IMG/VR virus record: IMGVR_UViG_3300026078_000012
Coordinates: 1-39,714 of that record
Source of the DNA: a virus
Strand: one strand, 5' to 3'
DNA: 39,714 bases
Of the stretch, positions 5,213 to 39,714 are shown in pieces. The notes under the pieces were generated by a model. That model saw nothing but the letters and a program-made list of their open reading frames with translations. It had not been told where the DNA came from and ran no database searches. How positions within the stretch are numbered: position 1 is the stretch's first letter; each line of letters opens with the position of its first letter. A program made the translations under genes and the position numbers.

Positions 5213-6055
5213 ATGAAGAACAAAATATTATTAGGAATTTTATTAACTCATACAGCTATTGCCGGGGATACGATTACCATTCCTTGGGATCCAAAACCTC
5301 TGGACCCAAATAAAACCAGAGGACAAGAAATTGAAGAATGGAATAAGCTTCATCCTGGTACTACAGGCCCTCTAACCCAACAAGAAAAAGAATATTTTAG
5401 AAGCCAAGGGTTGCCTATTCCTGGAGACAAAGTCAGTGTCAAACCACTGAATTCAATTAAAATGAATGATGCTGCTAAATTGTCTGCTCTGAATTATGTC
5501 AAAGAGCAACAAACAAAAGGTTATTCTGAGAGATTTAGTCAAAATGCTAAAAACCTTTCAAGTATTACAGAAGTAGCCGAGAAAGAATTTGAACACTACA
5601 ACGCCGGCACTTTAGAGGCTGAATCAACTCATTTAAGAAGACAACACTTCGAACTCAAGATTAGTTATAATTATAAGCCTCTTTCTTCAGAAATAACTCA
5701 AGAAGTCATTGGTTTTGCTCCTGAATCAAACTATGTAGAAAATGGATGGAATGGAGCAGTAGAGTTCTTTAAATGGCATGATCACAATTCTATTTGCGCA
5801 TTCCATGAAGTGAATATCAAACGCACAGGGTCTTCTGCGTTCTTCCCTAAAGAAATTGTTCGTTATGATATTAATAAAAAATTAACGCTTGTTTCAGCAG
5901 AAGGAAACGATCAGTCACAATATCTTTATACAGTTGAGTGGTGGGATAGTACTTATAAACGAATTTTAGAATGTACTGCTTCTGAATATTCTAATGATAT
6001 AAAGAATGAAGTGCTGGAAATGGCAAAGTTAATTGATAAAAACCGATCGTCATAA
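5213..6055 (+). CDS. Exported protein of unknown function (cargo gene)
   Basis: A 280-residue protein with a short signal peptide (MKNKILLGILLTHTAIAG, cleavage near AIA-G). A proline-rich segment follows (about 22-60), then a helical region and a C-terminal beta-rich part with WHDHNSICAFHEV and VEWWDSTYKRILECTA, which place Cys near residues 201 and 260. GGAAGAAAATAA precedes the ATG. It is paired with the exported protein just upstream, so they may act together outside the cytoplasm. No family recognised. Confidence 0.65.
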   Translation: MKNKILLGILLTHTAIAGDTITIPWDPKPLDPNKTRGQEIEEWNKLHPGTTGPLTQQEKEYFRSQGLPIPGDKVSVKPLNSIKMNDAAKLSALNYVKEQQTKGYSERFSQNAKNLSSITEVAEKEFEHYNAGTLEAESTHLRRQHFELKISYNYKPLSSEITQEVIGFAPESNYVENGWNGAVEFFKWHDHNSICAFHEVNIKRTGSSAFFPKEIVRYDINKKLTLVSAEGNDQSQYLYTVEWWDSTYKRILECTASEYSNDIKNEVLEMAKLIDKNRSS

Positions 6056-6067
6056 AAAGGATAATTT

Positions 6068-6313
6068 ATGGACCAGTTTAAAAAGGGAGATGAGATGTGG
6101 TGGTTTGTTGTCAATTACAGAGACAGCGCATCAAAGAACCTTTTACCTGATTCAATAGATTTGGTTCACGATCTTGTAACCGAAGACAGCTCAGGACCTT
6201 TTATTAAAGGTGACTTTGGATTTAAGCCCCATGAAAGTATTTGGGGCAAATCACGCCAGGAAGCATGGGATCGGTTGAAGGCTCATATTGAAAAATGGGG
6301 AAAATTGGACTAA
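6068..6313 (+). CDS. Small hypothetical protein
   Basis: An 81-residue soluble, acidic/aromatic protein starting MDQFKKGDEMWWFV. It begins 12 nt after the exported-protein gene behind AAAAGGATAATTT, probably on the same transcript, but has no signal peptide. It might be a cytoplasmic partner or immunity-type protein for that pair; this is only a positional guess. A structured, GC-rich region begins right after its stop. Confidence 0.55.
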   Translation: MDQFKKGDEMWWFVVNYRDSASKNLLPDSIDLVHDLVTEDSSGPFIKGDFGFKPHESIWGKSRQEAWDRLKAHIEKWGKLD

Positions 6314-6650
6314 CTCAGTTATACTGTTGGAAGCTCATCTACCATGACGTAGAAGGAGTATTCGGGTTGCTTACGGGCTTCCCAGAGCGTTCACTGATGA
6401 TTGATTATTCAGGTTGTCAGCCGTAAGCCCTGCGGTGCGCGAAATGGGCATAGAATAAGGGAGAAGGCCTCTAGCATTGGATGTTCGCATCTAAGCACAA
6501 ATCTCTCCCAACTTAACGGGGCGCGCCACACTCGTTCGCTAGCAAGACAGGATAAGGCTCCGGATGGTGTACTTATCTTGAGTGGCGCATTATCTCATGT
6601 ACCAACGGTGCAAGGAGTTGAGCAACGGCTATGCCCGCGCTTCTTATTGG
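6314..6650 (+). ncRNA. Candidate large structured RNA, segment A
   Basis: A GC-rich gene-free stretch with many strong helices: GCTTACGGGCT (6369-6379) with AGCCGTAAGC (6419-6428), one bulged G; GGGAGA/TCTCCC (6459-6464 with 6504-6509) enclosing a 7-bp hairpin capped by a TTCG tetraloop (6477-6494); GCGCCAC..TC (6523-6533) with GAGTGGCGC (6580-6588); and inside it a 9-bp stem 6548-6556 with 6572-6580. A TATACT box (6320-6325) lies at its upstream edge without a clear -35. An open frame from 6401 crosses it without a ribosome site and is not used here. Confidence 0.55.
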
Positions 6651-6658
6651 AAAATGAA

Positions 6659-6853
6659 ATGTATCAATGTGCTTTTTGTTCCAGTACAAAAACAAGGGAT
6701 AAATATTTTTGTTGTCCTTCTTCTATTTGGAGGCCTAATATGTACTCGGTTTGTGCACAGCATGAACATATGACCTTAAGTTGGGAAGATGTTTATCCAA
6801 CAGAAGATTGTAAGCCAATTACCAGGCATGAATCAAAATTAGGTATTTTATGA
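6659..6853 (+). CDS. Small Cys/His-rich protein
   Basis: The frame is open from 6401, but its first 86 codons run through the structured RNA, so the ATG at 6659 is taken as start. The 64-residue product starts MYQCAFCSSTKTRDKYFCC and has CAFC, CC and CAQHEH clusters, suggesting one small zinc site. Its stop overlaps the next start (ATGA). It sits inside the gap between the two structured RNA segments. Function unknown. Confidence 0.45.
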   Translation: MYQCAFCSSTKTRDKYFCCPSSIWRPNMYSVCAQHEHMTLSWEDVYPTEDCKPITRHESKLGIL

Positions 6854-7005
6854 AATATAGGATTAAGTATGATGGATGTTTAAAATTATATTTTCCTCAA
6901 AGAAAACTCCTGTGCTTTTGGGTTGATATGGATCGTGGATTTCTGAGTGAAAGAGAGGCTACGCTGTATATTGAATACAACAAAAATAAATATATTCCTA
7001 TTTAA
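6850..7005 (+). CDS. Small hypothetical protein
   Basis: A 51-residue protein starting MKYRIKYDGCLKLYF and ending with a Lys/Tyr-rich tail, translationally coupled to the gene before by ATGA. Beta-like pattern, no motif. Too short to assign and supported mainly by the overlap. Confidence 0.4.
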   Translation: MKYRIKYDGCLKLYFPQRKLLCFWVDMDRGFLSEREATLYIEYNKNKYIPI

Positions 7006-7021
7006 TCTCTTATCTATCGAA

Positions 7022-7387
7022 AAGGGATGTATAGAGGCCAGCACCAAGCCAGCGTAGCAAATTGGTGATTAGTTTATGACAATCGCGGCGCGGACAGTGA
7101 CGCGCAAGGCGAAAGCGTACATGTAGTCTGATGCATTTTAGGTTTCAATGAAACTTAATGGGGTGTTACGCCTTGGTATAAAAGCCAAATGACTTCAACC
7201 AAGCATCTACCTGGTGCAATTCCGGGCGATTGTCACCTTTTTATGGGATTGGAGCTCGAAAAGCTATAAGCGAAGAGCACCTTATTGTGCCTCTGGCGAG
7301 TCCGTGCTGCTTAGCAGATGCAGTTGAATGGATGGGTAACAGCGGATAACAAGGTAGGTGCAGGTGAAAATCCTGCCAATCCCACCT
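7022..7387 (+). ncRNA. Candidate large structured RNA, segment B, with tRNA-like 3' domain
   Basis: Long-range helix TGACAATCGC (about 7078-7087) with GCGATTGTCA (7226-7235). Inside are CACCAA/TTGGTG-type, GGTTTC/GAAACT, CTTGGT/ACCAAG and CCTGG/CCGGG hairpins and a GAAA tetraloop. The 3' domain (7245-7386) has tRNA geometry: 7-bp acceptor GGGATTG (7245-7251) with CAATCCC (7377-7383), directly preceded by a 5-bp T-like arm with a 7-nt loop (GCAGG TGAAAAT CCTGC, 7360-7376), then A-C-C-T at the 3' end. No anticodon arm or tmRNA peptide frame is evident. Confidence 0.6.
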
Positions 7388-7407
7388 TTGATGTTGGATA
7401 AAGAGCA

Positions 7408-7626
7408 ATGAATTCGATCGTAATTACTAAAGAACAATTTGCCTTTTACCTAGAAGAAACTGCTGCGGAATTACGTGGGTTCACTCTAACAAGAGAGTAT
7501 ATTTATGATGTATGCGATTCTCTCATAAAACACACCATGAATTTCAAAACAGAAGCTTTAGAAGAAGCGCGATTAAAAATATGTACTACCAAGGAAGAGG
7601 ATGAACATAACGCAGGAAGCATCTGA
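7408..7626 (+). CDS. Hypothetical phage protein
   Basis: A 72-residue helical, acidic protein starting MNSIVITKEQFAFYLEE. GGATAAAGAGCA lies upstream. It overlaps the DUF6378-like gene by 26 nt and so is probably cotranslated with it. No domain recognised. Confidence 0.6.
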   Translation: MNSIVITKEQFAFYLEETAAELRGFTLTREYIYDVCDSLIKHTMNFKTEALEEARLKICTTKEEDEHNAGSI

Positions 7627-7873
7627 ATTAGTGAATGGTAACAGGCAAACAGATTATGGTGATATGAATGATTCGTTCAGCCGGATAGCTGGACTTTGGT
7701 CATCTTATCTTAATACTCCAATAGACAAATACGATGTAGCAAAGATGATGATTCTTCTAAAAGTTTCTAGAGCTAAGAATGGGAATCACAGAGACAGTTA
7801 TGTGGATATTGTGGGGTATGTCGAGTGCATTGATCAGCTACTGGCCCTTGATGGAAAGAGCCATAGTAACTAG
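7601..7873 (+). CDS. DUF6378-like phage protein
   Basis: A 90-residue protein. The pattern EASELVNGNRQTDYGD, then FSRIAGLWSSYL, DVAKMMILLKVSRA, and HRDSYVDIVGYVECI is the hallmark of the short DUF6378 family, widespread in phages and of unknown biochemical role (recognised from memory). GAAGAGG gives a ribosome site inside the preceding gene. It closes this + strand group and converges on the XhlA-like gene. Confidence 0.75.
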   Translation: MNITQEASELVNGNRQTDYGDMNDSFSRIAGLWSSYLNTPIDKYDVAKMMILLKVSRAKNGNHRDSYVDIVGYVECIDQLLALDGKSHSN

Positions 7874-8209: not shown

Positions 8210-8416
8210 TTATTCATTTATATATTTATATAAATATTCAATTAAAACATCCCTCATGCTTTTTTCATCATCGATTAACTTGCGCTTTACCTTTTTAAAC
8301 AGTGGGGTTGGGATATTAAGTAAATACGGCTTTACTTCCTTTTCCTCCATTAACTTAGATAAACTCTCGTGGTTTTTTTCCTTATCAAATTTCTTTCCAG
8401 ACTCAATGTAGGCCAT
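8210..8416 (-). CDS. Ribbon-helix-helix partition protein (ParB/ParG-like)
   Basis: A 68-residue protein. The start at 8416 is used because GAGGAG sits 7-8 nt before it and it overlaps the parA stop. The N-terminus is basic and flexible; the C-terminal part (about residues 33-68, [18 protein letters not shown] then [14 protein letters not shown]) reads as a short beta strand and two helices, the ribbon-helix-helix centromere-binder layout found after small ParA proteins. It probably binds the AT-rich repeats upstream of parA and represses the operon. The order parA then RHH gene is typical of type Ib partition. Confidence 0.7.
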
Positions 8417-9044
8417 TTGAAAACTCCTCAAGCTCATCTACGATTAATTTAATTTCTTTTTTTGCCTCCACAGTATTTGCAGCTTCATCTACAACGGAAT
8501 GACCTTGGCTTACGGTAGCGGCATAAGCAACTCTTTGGGTAGTTCCACTTTTGAACACAGGAAGCCCTAAGCTTTCTAGCTGACCATAAACATCCTTTCC
8601 GATATTCGTTCCTTTTATTTTGCGGCTGACAATAAATGCAGCTTTTGTTTTTCCATCGGTCATTTCAATGCGCTCTTTAACGAGTCGAATTAAATCCTCA
8701 GTAGCCCATATGTCATAAAAAGAAGGCTGTACAGGTATCAAAATTATATTGGCTGCTTTTACAGCACAGACAGTCAAAGCGGCCATACTAGGTATTCCAT
8801 CAATAACAATACGATTATGGGTTTTTGTAAACTTAAGGACGTCTTTATCTAGTGTGGTAGTAGGCAAACAGGTGAGGTCAATTAATTCTCCATTGGATCG
8901 CTCGTGCCATCGAAGAGCAGAGCCTTGGCTGTCCGAATCAACGAGCAGAGATTCATATGCTCTTAGCTTGTATTCCCTGACTATATTTACAGCAAGAGTG
9001 GTTTTACCCGTGCCTCCCTTTTGATTTAGAATAGATATAATCAT
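8403..9044 (-). CDS. parA: ParA-family partition ATPase
   Basis: A 213-residue protein with the deviant Walker A box KGGTGKTT (residues 9-16, with the signature lysine), [12 protein letters not shown] (about 36-47) and IDGIPS (about 83-88) as Walker A'/B region. The length and lack of an N-terminal HTH place it in the short type Ib ParA group, which moves plasmids along the nucleoid with a small RHH partner. The partner gene overlaps the stop by 14 nt. Its presence in a phage genome is the strongest single sign of plasmid-like lysogeny. Confidence 0.93.
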
Positions 9045-10120: not shown

Positions 10121-10196
10121 TCAGGAGTAGCTCAGTTGGCAGAGCACCGGACTGTTAATTCGGTTGTCGTAGGTTCGAGCCCTACCTCCTGAGCCA
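10121..10196 (+). tRNA. tRNA-Asn (anticodon GTT)
   Basis: A complete cloverleaf with encoded CCA: acceptor TCAGGAG/CTCCTGA, D stem GCTC/GAGC, anticodon stem CCGGA/TTCGG with loop CTGTTAA (anticodon GTT), T arm GTAGG TTCGAGC CCTAC, discriminator G, CCA at 10194-10196. It lies between the candidate small terminase and the large terminase in the same orientation. It may supplement Asn decoding, since the genome is rich in AAT/AAC codons. No integrase is present, so I see no reason to call it an attachment site. Confidence 0.95.
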
Positions 10197-39048: not shown

Positions 39049-39630
39049 CTAATATTGTACTCTTTTAGTATGGCCAGATAAGAGTTTATATACACTGCCT
39101 CTACTTAATTTCATTGTCTTTGCTATCTGAGTTACATTGTAGCCTTGGTCGCATAGGGCAATAGCTTCGTTGGCTCTATTCATATCTAGTGGTTGAGTAC
39201 CAAACGGTTTACCTGACTTAGTACCATTTAGTTTTGTTTGTTCTATTCCTTCGCGCTGACGTTCTTTACTCATGGCTCTTTCTAATTGAGCGAATGCAGT
39301 CATTACTTGAATCATACACATACTAAATAAGTCTTCTTTACTTCCTGATAGAGTTAATCCTTCTTTAACTAGCTTAAGCGTTGCTCCAGCTTTTACTATC
39401 TGTTCGACTATTTCTATTAAGTCTCGCACTGAACGGCTTAGTCTATCAACGCTATGAACGTACAGCGTATCGCCTTCTCTGAGCATATCTAAGCAGCGTT
39501 TCAGCTCGGGCCTATCTTTGGTAGCGCCACTTACATAGTCTTCGTATGCGGGCTTGTCGAGCTCTATATCCACTAATTGACGCGCAGTGCTTTGCTCTTT
39601 CGTGCTCACTCTTTTGTAACCTAATCTCAT
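39049..39630 (-). CDS. Serine recombinase (resolvase/invertase family)
   Basis: A 193-residue protein. Start ATG 39630 follows AGGGG by about 7 nt; the frame is open to 39681. The catalytic domain has the nucleophile in YKRVST (Ser about 9), with DRLSRS at 62-67, GATLKLVKEGL, and LERAMSKERQREGI, and a C-terminal HTH (about 155-190, YNVTQIAKTMKLSRGSVYKLL). Small resolvases of this size resolve plasmid dimers; as no other integrase exists here, that is the likely role. Inversion of a DNA segment is the alternative. Its upstream region crosses the circle join. Confidence 0.9.
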   Translation of the reverse strand: MRLGYKRVSTKEQSTARQLVDIELDKPAYEDYVSGATKDRPELKRCLDMLREGDTLYVHSVDRLSRSVRDLIEIVEQIVKAGATLKLVKEGLTLSGSKEDLFSMCMIQVMTAFAQLERAMSKERQREGIEQTKLNGTKSGKPFGTQPLDMNRANEAIALCDQGYNVTQIAKTMKLSRGSVYKLLSGHTKRVQY

Positions 39631-39714
39631 AACATTACCCCTATGATTGAAAGGAATGCATGATATGGGTTGCAAGAACATGTGTCAATACAAGTTATAT
39701 AATTAAATCATGAA
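39588..39714. repeat. Terminal direct repeat, right copy (circular-contig overlap)
   Basis: Identical to 1-127; see the left copy. The resolvase start (39630) lies inside it, so the same start appears at position 43 with only a fragment of the gene at the left edge. Removing one copy gives the circular unit. Confidence 0.95.

Follow-up and report, generated by a model that had tools for sequence, protein, structure and literature searches.

Mimicry of tRNA by noncoding RNAs is so far known from few families (tmRNA, YrlA and the 3' ends of plant viruses). The tRNA cluster of phage T4 also encodes stable RNAs that are not tRNAs ("species 1/2", RNA C and D), which are mentioned here as an analogy only. 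In tmRNA, a tRNA-like domain carries a long insert in place of the anticodon arm. YrlA is a modular noncoding RNA of ~90-150 nt, which combines a tRNA-mimicking module comprising D, T and acceptor arms with a non-tRNA part and binds Rsr/Ro60 and PNPase (PMC8394870). GOLLD and ROOL are much larger single RNAs of phages and prophages with unassigned function, and the linker of GOLLD sometimes contains tRNAs (PMC12286853). The abiF antitoxin RNA (RF03085), a small RNA of phages and prophages, acts in trans on a protein, and in Clostridioides difficile it neutralises its own toxin in this way (PMC12373285). Phage tRNAs themselves counter tRNA-cleaving defence (PMC10264068, PMC11555353).

The stretch of DNA analysed here (the window) is the IMG/VR virus entry IMGVR_UViG_3300026078_000012, an uncultivated phage of 39,714 nt; related loci and contigs are labelled with L-numbers (L063 etc.). 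Judged by comparison with these relatives, the region around positions 6314-7387 almost certainly comprises separate conserved structured RNAs, among them one termed modA. Like YrlA, modA joins a tRNA-like domain to a non-tRNA part, but the 5' and 3' ends of YrlA pair in a separate long stem, whereas those of modA form an acceptor-like stem, and the extra part of modA replaces the anticodon arm. The latter is shared with tmRNA, although the insert of modA is hypervariable and mostly unrelated between copies. With GOLLD and ROOL, modA has in common the occurrence in phages, the unassigned function and the proximity to tRNAs, but its copies comprise only ~80-230 nt and are independent of each other. 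The abiF RNA is unrelated to these modules in sequence and structure and is absent from the window. Neither Rfam nor ARAGORN detected a tmRNA in the window, and no Rfam match to Y RNA was obtained in the window or the scanned relatives.

The GC-rich blocks of the window and their folding

Two non-coding blocks showed an increased GC content compared to the background of 0.31-0.40, namely block 1 (~6314-6660) with 0.44-0.505 and block 2 (~7006-7400) with 0.40-0.49. An initial annotation of this DNA had described two GC-rich blocks with no protein behind them, and indeed neither Pfam nor PHROG nor any open reading frame explained them. The spacer between the blocks consists of ordinary small genes, and the first of these is not part of any RNA (Table 1).

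The initial annotation had also counted more than ten strong helices. While the named helices are present, the amount of folding lies within the chance range of shuffled sequences, with MFE z-scores of -1.52 for block 1, -1.49 for block 2 and -1.58 for the coding spacer. Since the blocks score like the coding spacer, about 1.5 SD below the shuffles, the folding energy of a single sequence is uninformative, and many helices in one sequence count for little. Among the individual helices, the TTCG-capped hairpin was confirmed with 7 bp, and no relatives of 6455-6520 were found by nhmmer. A supposed GAAA-capped hairpin (7109-7116) comprises a mere 2 bp and has no comparative support. The 10-bp helix reported to span ~150 nt exists as the pairing 7077-7086/7226-7235, but its innermost pair C7086-G7226 lies outside the conserved structure, as in the comparative data G7226 pairs with C7210 instead and closes a T-arm-like stem.

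Table 1. Position of RNA modules, genes and further elements in the window.
Feature	Position	Strand	Basis
Block 1, at least two further RNA modules	6331..6645	+	nhmmer relative, E 9.1e-29
modC copy 1, CUCAU-CUAC...GUAG-A-AGGAG motif	6334..6358	+	regex scan
UUCG-capped 7-bp hairpin	6477..6494	+	read from sequence; part of MFE fold
modC copy 2, then conserved tail UUGAGCAACGG.UAUGCCCGCGC to 6638	6594..6617	+	relatives
Small gene in the spacer, protein with CxxC motifs	6659..6853	+	relative in L110 by tblastn, E 1.6e-7
51-aa ORF in the spacer	6850..7005	+	best PHROG match sub-threshold, E 0.008
modD, short conserved RNA piece just 5' of modA	7008..7069	+	relative in L011
modA, tRNA-like RNA	7077..7235	+	61-sequence covariation; CM 104.7 bits (training member, so a match by construction)
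modB, second RNA family, tRNA-like 3' half	7244..7384	+	10 members, nhmmer or pattern
tRNA-Asn (GUU), just upstream of terminase	10121..10196	+	ARAGORN and Rfam

The RNA cluster is directly followed on its 3' side by a gene for a DUF6378 protein (7601-7873, Pfam 4.5e-30). Further genes of the window encode a ParA-type partition ATPase (8403-9044, minus strand, Pfam AAA_31 2.9e-17), which is also present in L035 and L074, and a protein reading like a serine recombinase (39049-39681, minus strand). Both are in agreement with a phage-plasmid. The tRNA-Asn is the only true tRNA of the window according to ARAGORN and Rfam.

The modA family and its resemblance to tRNA

The structure of modA starts with a closing, acceptor-like stem (7077-7085 with 7227-7235) of 8 bp, often extended by a ninth pair U-A. 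It is followed by a 2-nt linker, which is CG in 52 of the 61 aligned copies, a D-arm-like hairpin (7088-7105, loop GACAGUGA), the variable insert (~7106-7209) and a T-arm-like hairpin (7210-7226, loop UGCAAUU), to which the closing strand is attached without gap. Both hairpins comprise 5 bp. The inserts of 32-163 nt are hypervariable, as the 61 inserts fall into 51 clusters, and they are kept within subtypes.

A search with the pattern TCGCGGCGNNGACAGTGANNCG matched 33 viral contigs with ~30 true members; L050, L054 and L057 were judged to be chance matches, for which no T-arm was found (L054 reached 25 bits with the model). A slightly longer 5' pattern matched two bacterial assemblies, whose contigs of 34-36 kb may both be phage. 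A pattern in which only the T-arm and the closing strand on the 3' side were fixed matched 45 contigs, of which ~25 were new, and most of these newcomers have the expected 5' strand together with a hairpin with a GACAG-type D-loop. Since the 3'-only pattern recovers the same architecture, the 5' half is no artefact of the first pattern. Altogether, relatives were found in more than 50 viral contigs and two bacterial assemblies, and modA is a member of a widespread, undescribed RNA family absent from Rfam. When the model was applied to 188 bacterial relatives of the BBSC-SA01 genome, BBSC-SA01 alone matched. The region showed no DNA similarity to GenBank phages and PLSDB plasmids, in which the 33-nt core consensus of modA gave only partial matches (E 0.09-0.9) inside annotated protein genes. 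An earlier description of the modules was not found in the open-access literature, subscription literature being outside the scope of the search.

The portal protein of the window, which belongs to a PHROGs portal family, has a relative in 29 of the 49 searched modA contigs (21-84% identity), so modA tracks a broad group of related phages. Together, the portal and major-capsid matches suggest that these are P22-like podoviruses.

Covariation, proposed as a check in the initial annotation and run on modA only, was strong. In a MAFFT alignment of the 61 sequences, which was not fitted to the structure, 96.0% of the cells were paired, and 16 of the 19 base pairs showed changes on both sides. The alignment comprised 118 double-change cells compared to 31.0 +/- 3.9 in shuffles, none of 500 shuffles reached as high a value, and no more than 21 such cells were found when the partners were slid. 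For the acceptor-like stem and the T-arm (helices 1 and 3), 95.6% and 97.4% of the cells were paired. An alignment of 33 sequences gave the same picture. Although the shuffle test ignores the relatedness of the sequences, the covariation is secure, since the effect is large and in several copies the whole closing stem is replaced with compensation (TGAGACGCT/AGCGTCTCA, TGTTAGCAG/CTGCTAACA and TGGAAATAG/CTATTTCCA).

Based on these data, the architecture of modA is very probably that of a tRNA in which the anticodon arm is swapped for a variable insert. As in canonical tRNA (RF00005), the acceptor-like stem stacks directly on a T-arm of 5 bp, the loop of which comprises 7 nt, a 2-nt linker and a D-arm are present, and the genes occupy the same genomic slot in tRNA arrays. 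In contrast, the closing stem comprises 8-9 bp compared to 7 bp in the tRNA acceptor, the insert takes the place of both anticodon and variable arms, the D-loop is GACAGUGA, and an encoded NCCA was found at the 3' end of only 5 of the 61 copies, so that no CCA end is conserved. An anticodon arm with a readable anticodon is absent, ARAGORN found no tRNA at 7077-7235, and the Rfam tRNA model did not match the window copy. Due to the stem length and the rare NCCA, modA is not an ordinary tRNA, and a tRNA-type 3' processing is putative.

A further common feature of modA and the tRNAs of these phages is the joint change of D-loop and T-loop, in which A18/G55 alternates with G18/U55. All three modA members with a canonical T-loop (UUCGACU, UUCAAGU, UUCGAUU) have GG in the D-loop, and in nearly all other members a UGC T-loop goes along with an AG D-loop. 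Among the true tRNAs of the phages, 80 showed GG with U55 and 6 non-GG with G55, with 3 exceptions (Fisher p 1.4e-7, ignoring shared descent). In tRNAs of L003, L009, L011, L012, L013 and L023, GG is changed to non-GG (mostly AG) together with U55 to G55 (UGC T-loops), which amounts to 6/6 compared to 80/83. The co-changing positions presumably correspond to the 18-55 contact of the standard tRNA structure. This indirectly suggests that the D-loop of modA meets its T-loop in the same way, with only three members in the U55 state. The near-universal tRNA elbow pair G18-U55 is thus naturally swapped to A18/G55 in a coordinated manner, in modA as well as in real tRNAs, and a G at position 55 would exclude pseudouridine there.

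Several other RNAs of the relatives are related to tRNA. One sequence (L088, 675-806) scored with the Rfam tRNA model (40.6 bits) as well as with the modA model R1 (42.3 bits). At L013:8621-8816, a modA insert harbours a tRNA-like sequence (36.2 bits with the Rfam tRNA model), for which ARAGORN gives an intron-like insert in the anticodon loop. A long tRNA-like RNA with a perfect 7-bp acceptor, a UUC T-loop and an ACCA end, ~50 nt too long for a tRNA, is near-identical in two phages (L006:1845-1970 and L029:7044-7170). Enlarged anticodon loops were found in tRNA genes of L036:7356-7459 and L021:3605-3701 (ARAGORN inserts of 26 and 24 nt, Rfam tRNA 43.8 and 43 bits). A "tmRNA" called by ARAGORN in L006 overlaps two separate tRNAs and was judged spurious.

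Genomic neighbourhood and proposed role of modA

For 13 of the 61 modA copies, a separate tRNA was found at a distance of up to 500 nt and without exception on the same strand, at a tRNA density in the modA loci of only 0.037 per kb. Some copies are 0-3 nt away from a tRNA, and many are isolated among protein genes, followed on the 3' side by a nearby ribosome-binding site. The 55 ORFs found 3' of modA, based on a crude ORF choice, fall into 44 clusters, the largest of which comprises 4.

Our overall explanation, to which we give about even chances, is that the region is a tandem of separate RNA genes and that the modA-type RNAs are trans-acting tRNA mimics with a possible role in counter-defence. 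The layout of the tandem would be related to the tRNA-gene arrays of sister phages. Like tRNAs, the modA-type RNAs would be cut from a polycistronic transcript; joint processing with tRNAs is plausible because of the copies directly next to a tRNA. The excised RNAs would then accumulate as stable tRNA mimics. Their action in trans is probable, since the genes downstream of modA are not related to each other. Host proteins that handle tRNAs would be bound by the constant tRNA-like body, while the variable insert would confer specificity, and the combination of a constant core with a hypervariable insert fits such a docking mimic. As a role we tentatively put counter-defence first, in which the RNAs may decoy or block host nucleases or toxins acting on tRNA or RNA. 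This choice is based on the known anti-defence function of phage tRNAs and on an abiF antitoxin RNA in L063 (3893-3937, minus strand), an orphan that directly precedes the relative of block 1 on its 5' side. This RNA scored 41.0 bits (cut-off 37; E 3.7e-6 in a scan of 501 bases), and an Abi_2 gene is absent from this contig. The link of abiF to block 1 comes from this one contig.

A role in cis would also be compatible with the many copies that stand alone with a ribosome-binding site shortly 3'. Two such roles can be considered. Similar to the tRNA punctuation of mitochondria, the relatives of modA could be processing signals, which are cut by enzymes of the RNase P/RNase Z type and thereby separate phage mRNAs, leaving an excised RNA with no further job. 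The tRNA-like ends, the position of copies between a stop codon immediately 5' and the ribosome-binding site of the next gene a short distance 3', and the lack of relation between contigs among both upstream and downstream genes would fit to this. However, tandem arrays of modules in L058, L098 and L109 contain nothing to separate, the conservation of inserts within subtypes would be unneeded, and modA has no conserved CCA, which makes this explanation rather unlikely. Alternatively, modA could be a regulatory leader, similar to a T-box or a riboswitch, of the gene immediately downstream, as it is often located 10-60 nt upstream of an ORF on the same strand with a ribosome-binding site. This is quite improbable, since the ORFs show no conserved gene class, no terminator-like element was found in the RNA region of the window, and modA also occurs in tandem copies and inside tRNA arrays.

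Further modules, possible cassette arrays and the idea of a single large RNA

The second family, modB, has a closing stem (7244-7251 with 7377-7384), a D-arm-like 5' hairpin and a T-arm-like hairpin (7360-7376, loop UGAAAAU). Its closing stems are compensated between members (GGGATTG/CAATCCC, GGGATG/CATCCC, TGACAG/CTGTCA and GGAGCG/CGCTCC). The two modules modA and modB are direct neighbours in the window, L056 and L053, and either of them can come first. Both share the plan of a long closing stem and a directly abutting 5-bp hairpin with a 7-nt T-loop-type loop. A descriptor of this plan matched 58 places compared to 8 in reversed/complemented control sequences, whereby the 58 include overlapping calls and calls related to tRNA, and the searched loci include those fetched for modA.

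Block 1 as a whole has one relative, in L063 (3886-3620, minus strand), in which the helix 6523-6529/6582-6588 (GCGCCAC/GTGGCGC) is unchanged. The piece 6419-6453 recurs in L017 (E 0.24) and L041 (E 0.02). Relatives of modC copy 1 were found in L003 (GUAC/GUAC) and L063, those of copy 2 in L014, L018, L093 (CUAU/AUAG) and L063; judged on few sequences, modC may also be a coding sequence (LSNGYARAS). The relative of modD (L011, 411-472, 85% identical, E 1.2e-6) lies between two tRNAs. A module TGGCCGACGATA...AAAATAGGCCA was present in 14 viral contig stretches. In a further one (L019:9383-9505 and L021:345-452), the closing stem differs with compensation (GGCAAATG/CATTTGCC versus GACAGCCAA/TTGGCTGTC), and ACCA follows in each case. 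Moreover, about ten different structured modules follow each other in L058 (3840-5270) with a repeated CCAAAGAATTATGG junction, and similar CCACCAGTTTATGG junctions occur in L074, L082 and L049. In several relatives, a conserved protein of 134-135 aa is encoded between the tRNA/RNA array and the terminase (L019:9521-9928, L013:9189-9593), and this protein showed no Pfam match.

Such mosaics with recurrent junctions resemble cassettes that can be exchanged. The modules could be regarded as attC-like recombination hairpins, i.e. DNA-level cassette ends whose structure acts as DNA, as they are shuffled between contigs with recurrent junctions (CCACCAG-TTTATGG, CCAAAGAA-TTATGG). Nonetheless, the identities and the co-change of T-loop and D-loop are traits of a folded RNA, and the modules are more than a single inverted repeat, so this is very unlikely.

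The initial annotation had proposed a large ornate noncoding RNA, or an RNA pair, resembling GOLLD and ROOL, with the small genes in a peripheral loop. A structured noncoding RNA in a phage without database match was borne out, but a large ornate RNA was not supported, and the term RNA pair, although nearer, falls short of at least four separate modules. Size, phage location and the tRNA-island neighbourhood of the relatives would be in line with one giant RNA over 6314-7387, as GOLLD and ROOL likewise occur near tRNA islands (PMC12286853). Rfam 15, however, gave no match to GOLLD, ROOL or the also suggested group I/II introns and tmRNA, neither at the gathering threshold in the whole window, where only the tRNA-Asn was found, nor up to E = 5 in 6000-7600, where nothing but a chance snoRNA call appeared. 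In the window and ~39 loci (scanned whole or in part), Rfam detected only tRNAs, one abiF RNA and one int-alpA RNA. The block 1 relative in L063 lies 3.3 kb from the modA of this contig, which argues that the two blocks are separate RNAs and contradicts a peripheral loop, as do relatives with modA or modB alone or in tRNA arrays. Furthermore, short pieces of the region recur among the 36 related contigs from a terminase search as separate units among tRNA genes just upstream of the terminase. A circularly permuted single large RNA, considered due to the block order in L013 and L014, was dropped, as the pieces are independent modules among tRNAs. Taken together with a folding energy no better than that of shuffles and the presence of modA on more than 50 contigs, one giant RNA has hardly any probability. 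Finally, decaying tRNA genes of a phage tRNA cluster, which the array position, the tRNA-like arms and the missing CCA and anticodon might suggest, have a probability close to zero. In the 61 divergent copies, all three helices show compensatory changes and the loops hardly vary, which indicates purifying selection on structure and refutes this reading for modA; for some parts of block 1 it is conceivable.

In a broader sense, uncultivated P22-like phages may carry arrays of RNA cassettes as an RNA-based counter-defence arsenal, which we consider as a doubtful but conceivable extension of the preferred explanation. Such arrays would be put together within and near tRNA clusters from tRNA-shaped RNAs and other compact RNAs, whose inserts can be exchanged. 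They would act as decoys or inhibitors of host immunity that cleaves tRNA or is activated by RNA, and antitoxin RNAs borrowed from elsewhere, such as abiF, would be part of them. To the few families of tRNA-mimicking RNAs, modA, which has no cultured representative among the GenBank phage and PLSDB plasmid records searched, adds a phage-borne one, in which a constant tRNA-like core carries a hypervariable payload and which has strong comparative support. It is a concrete, testable candidate for RNA-based counter-defence.
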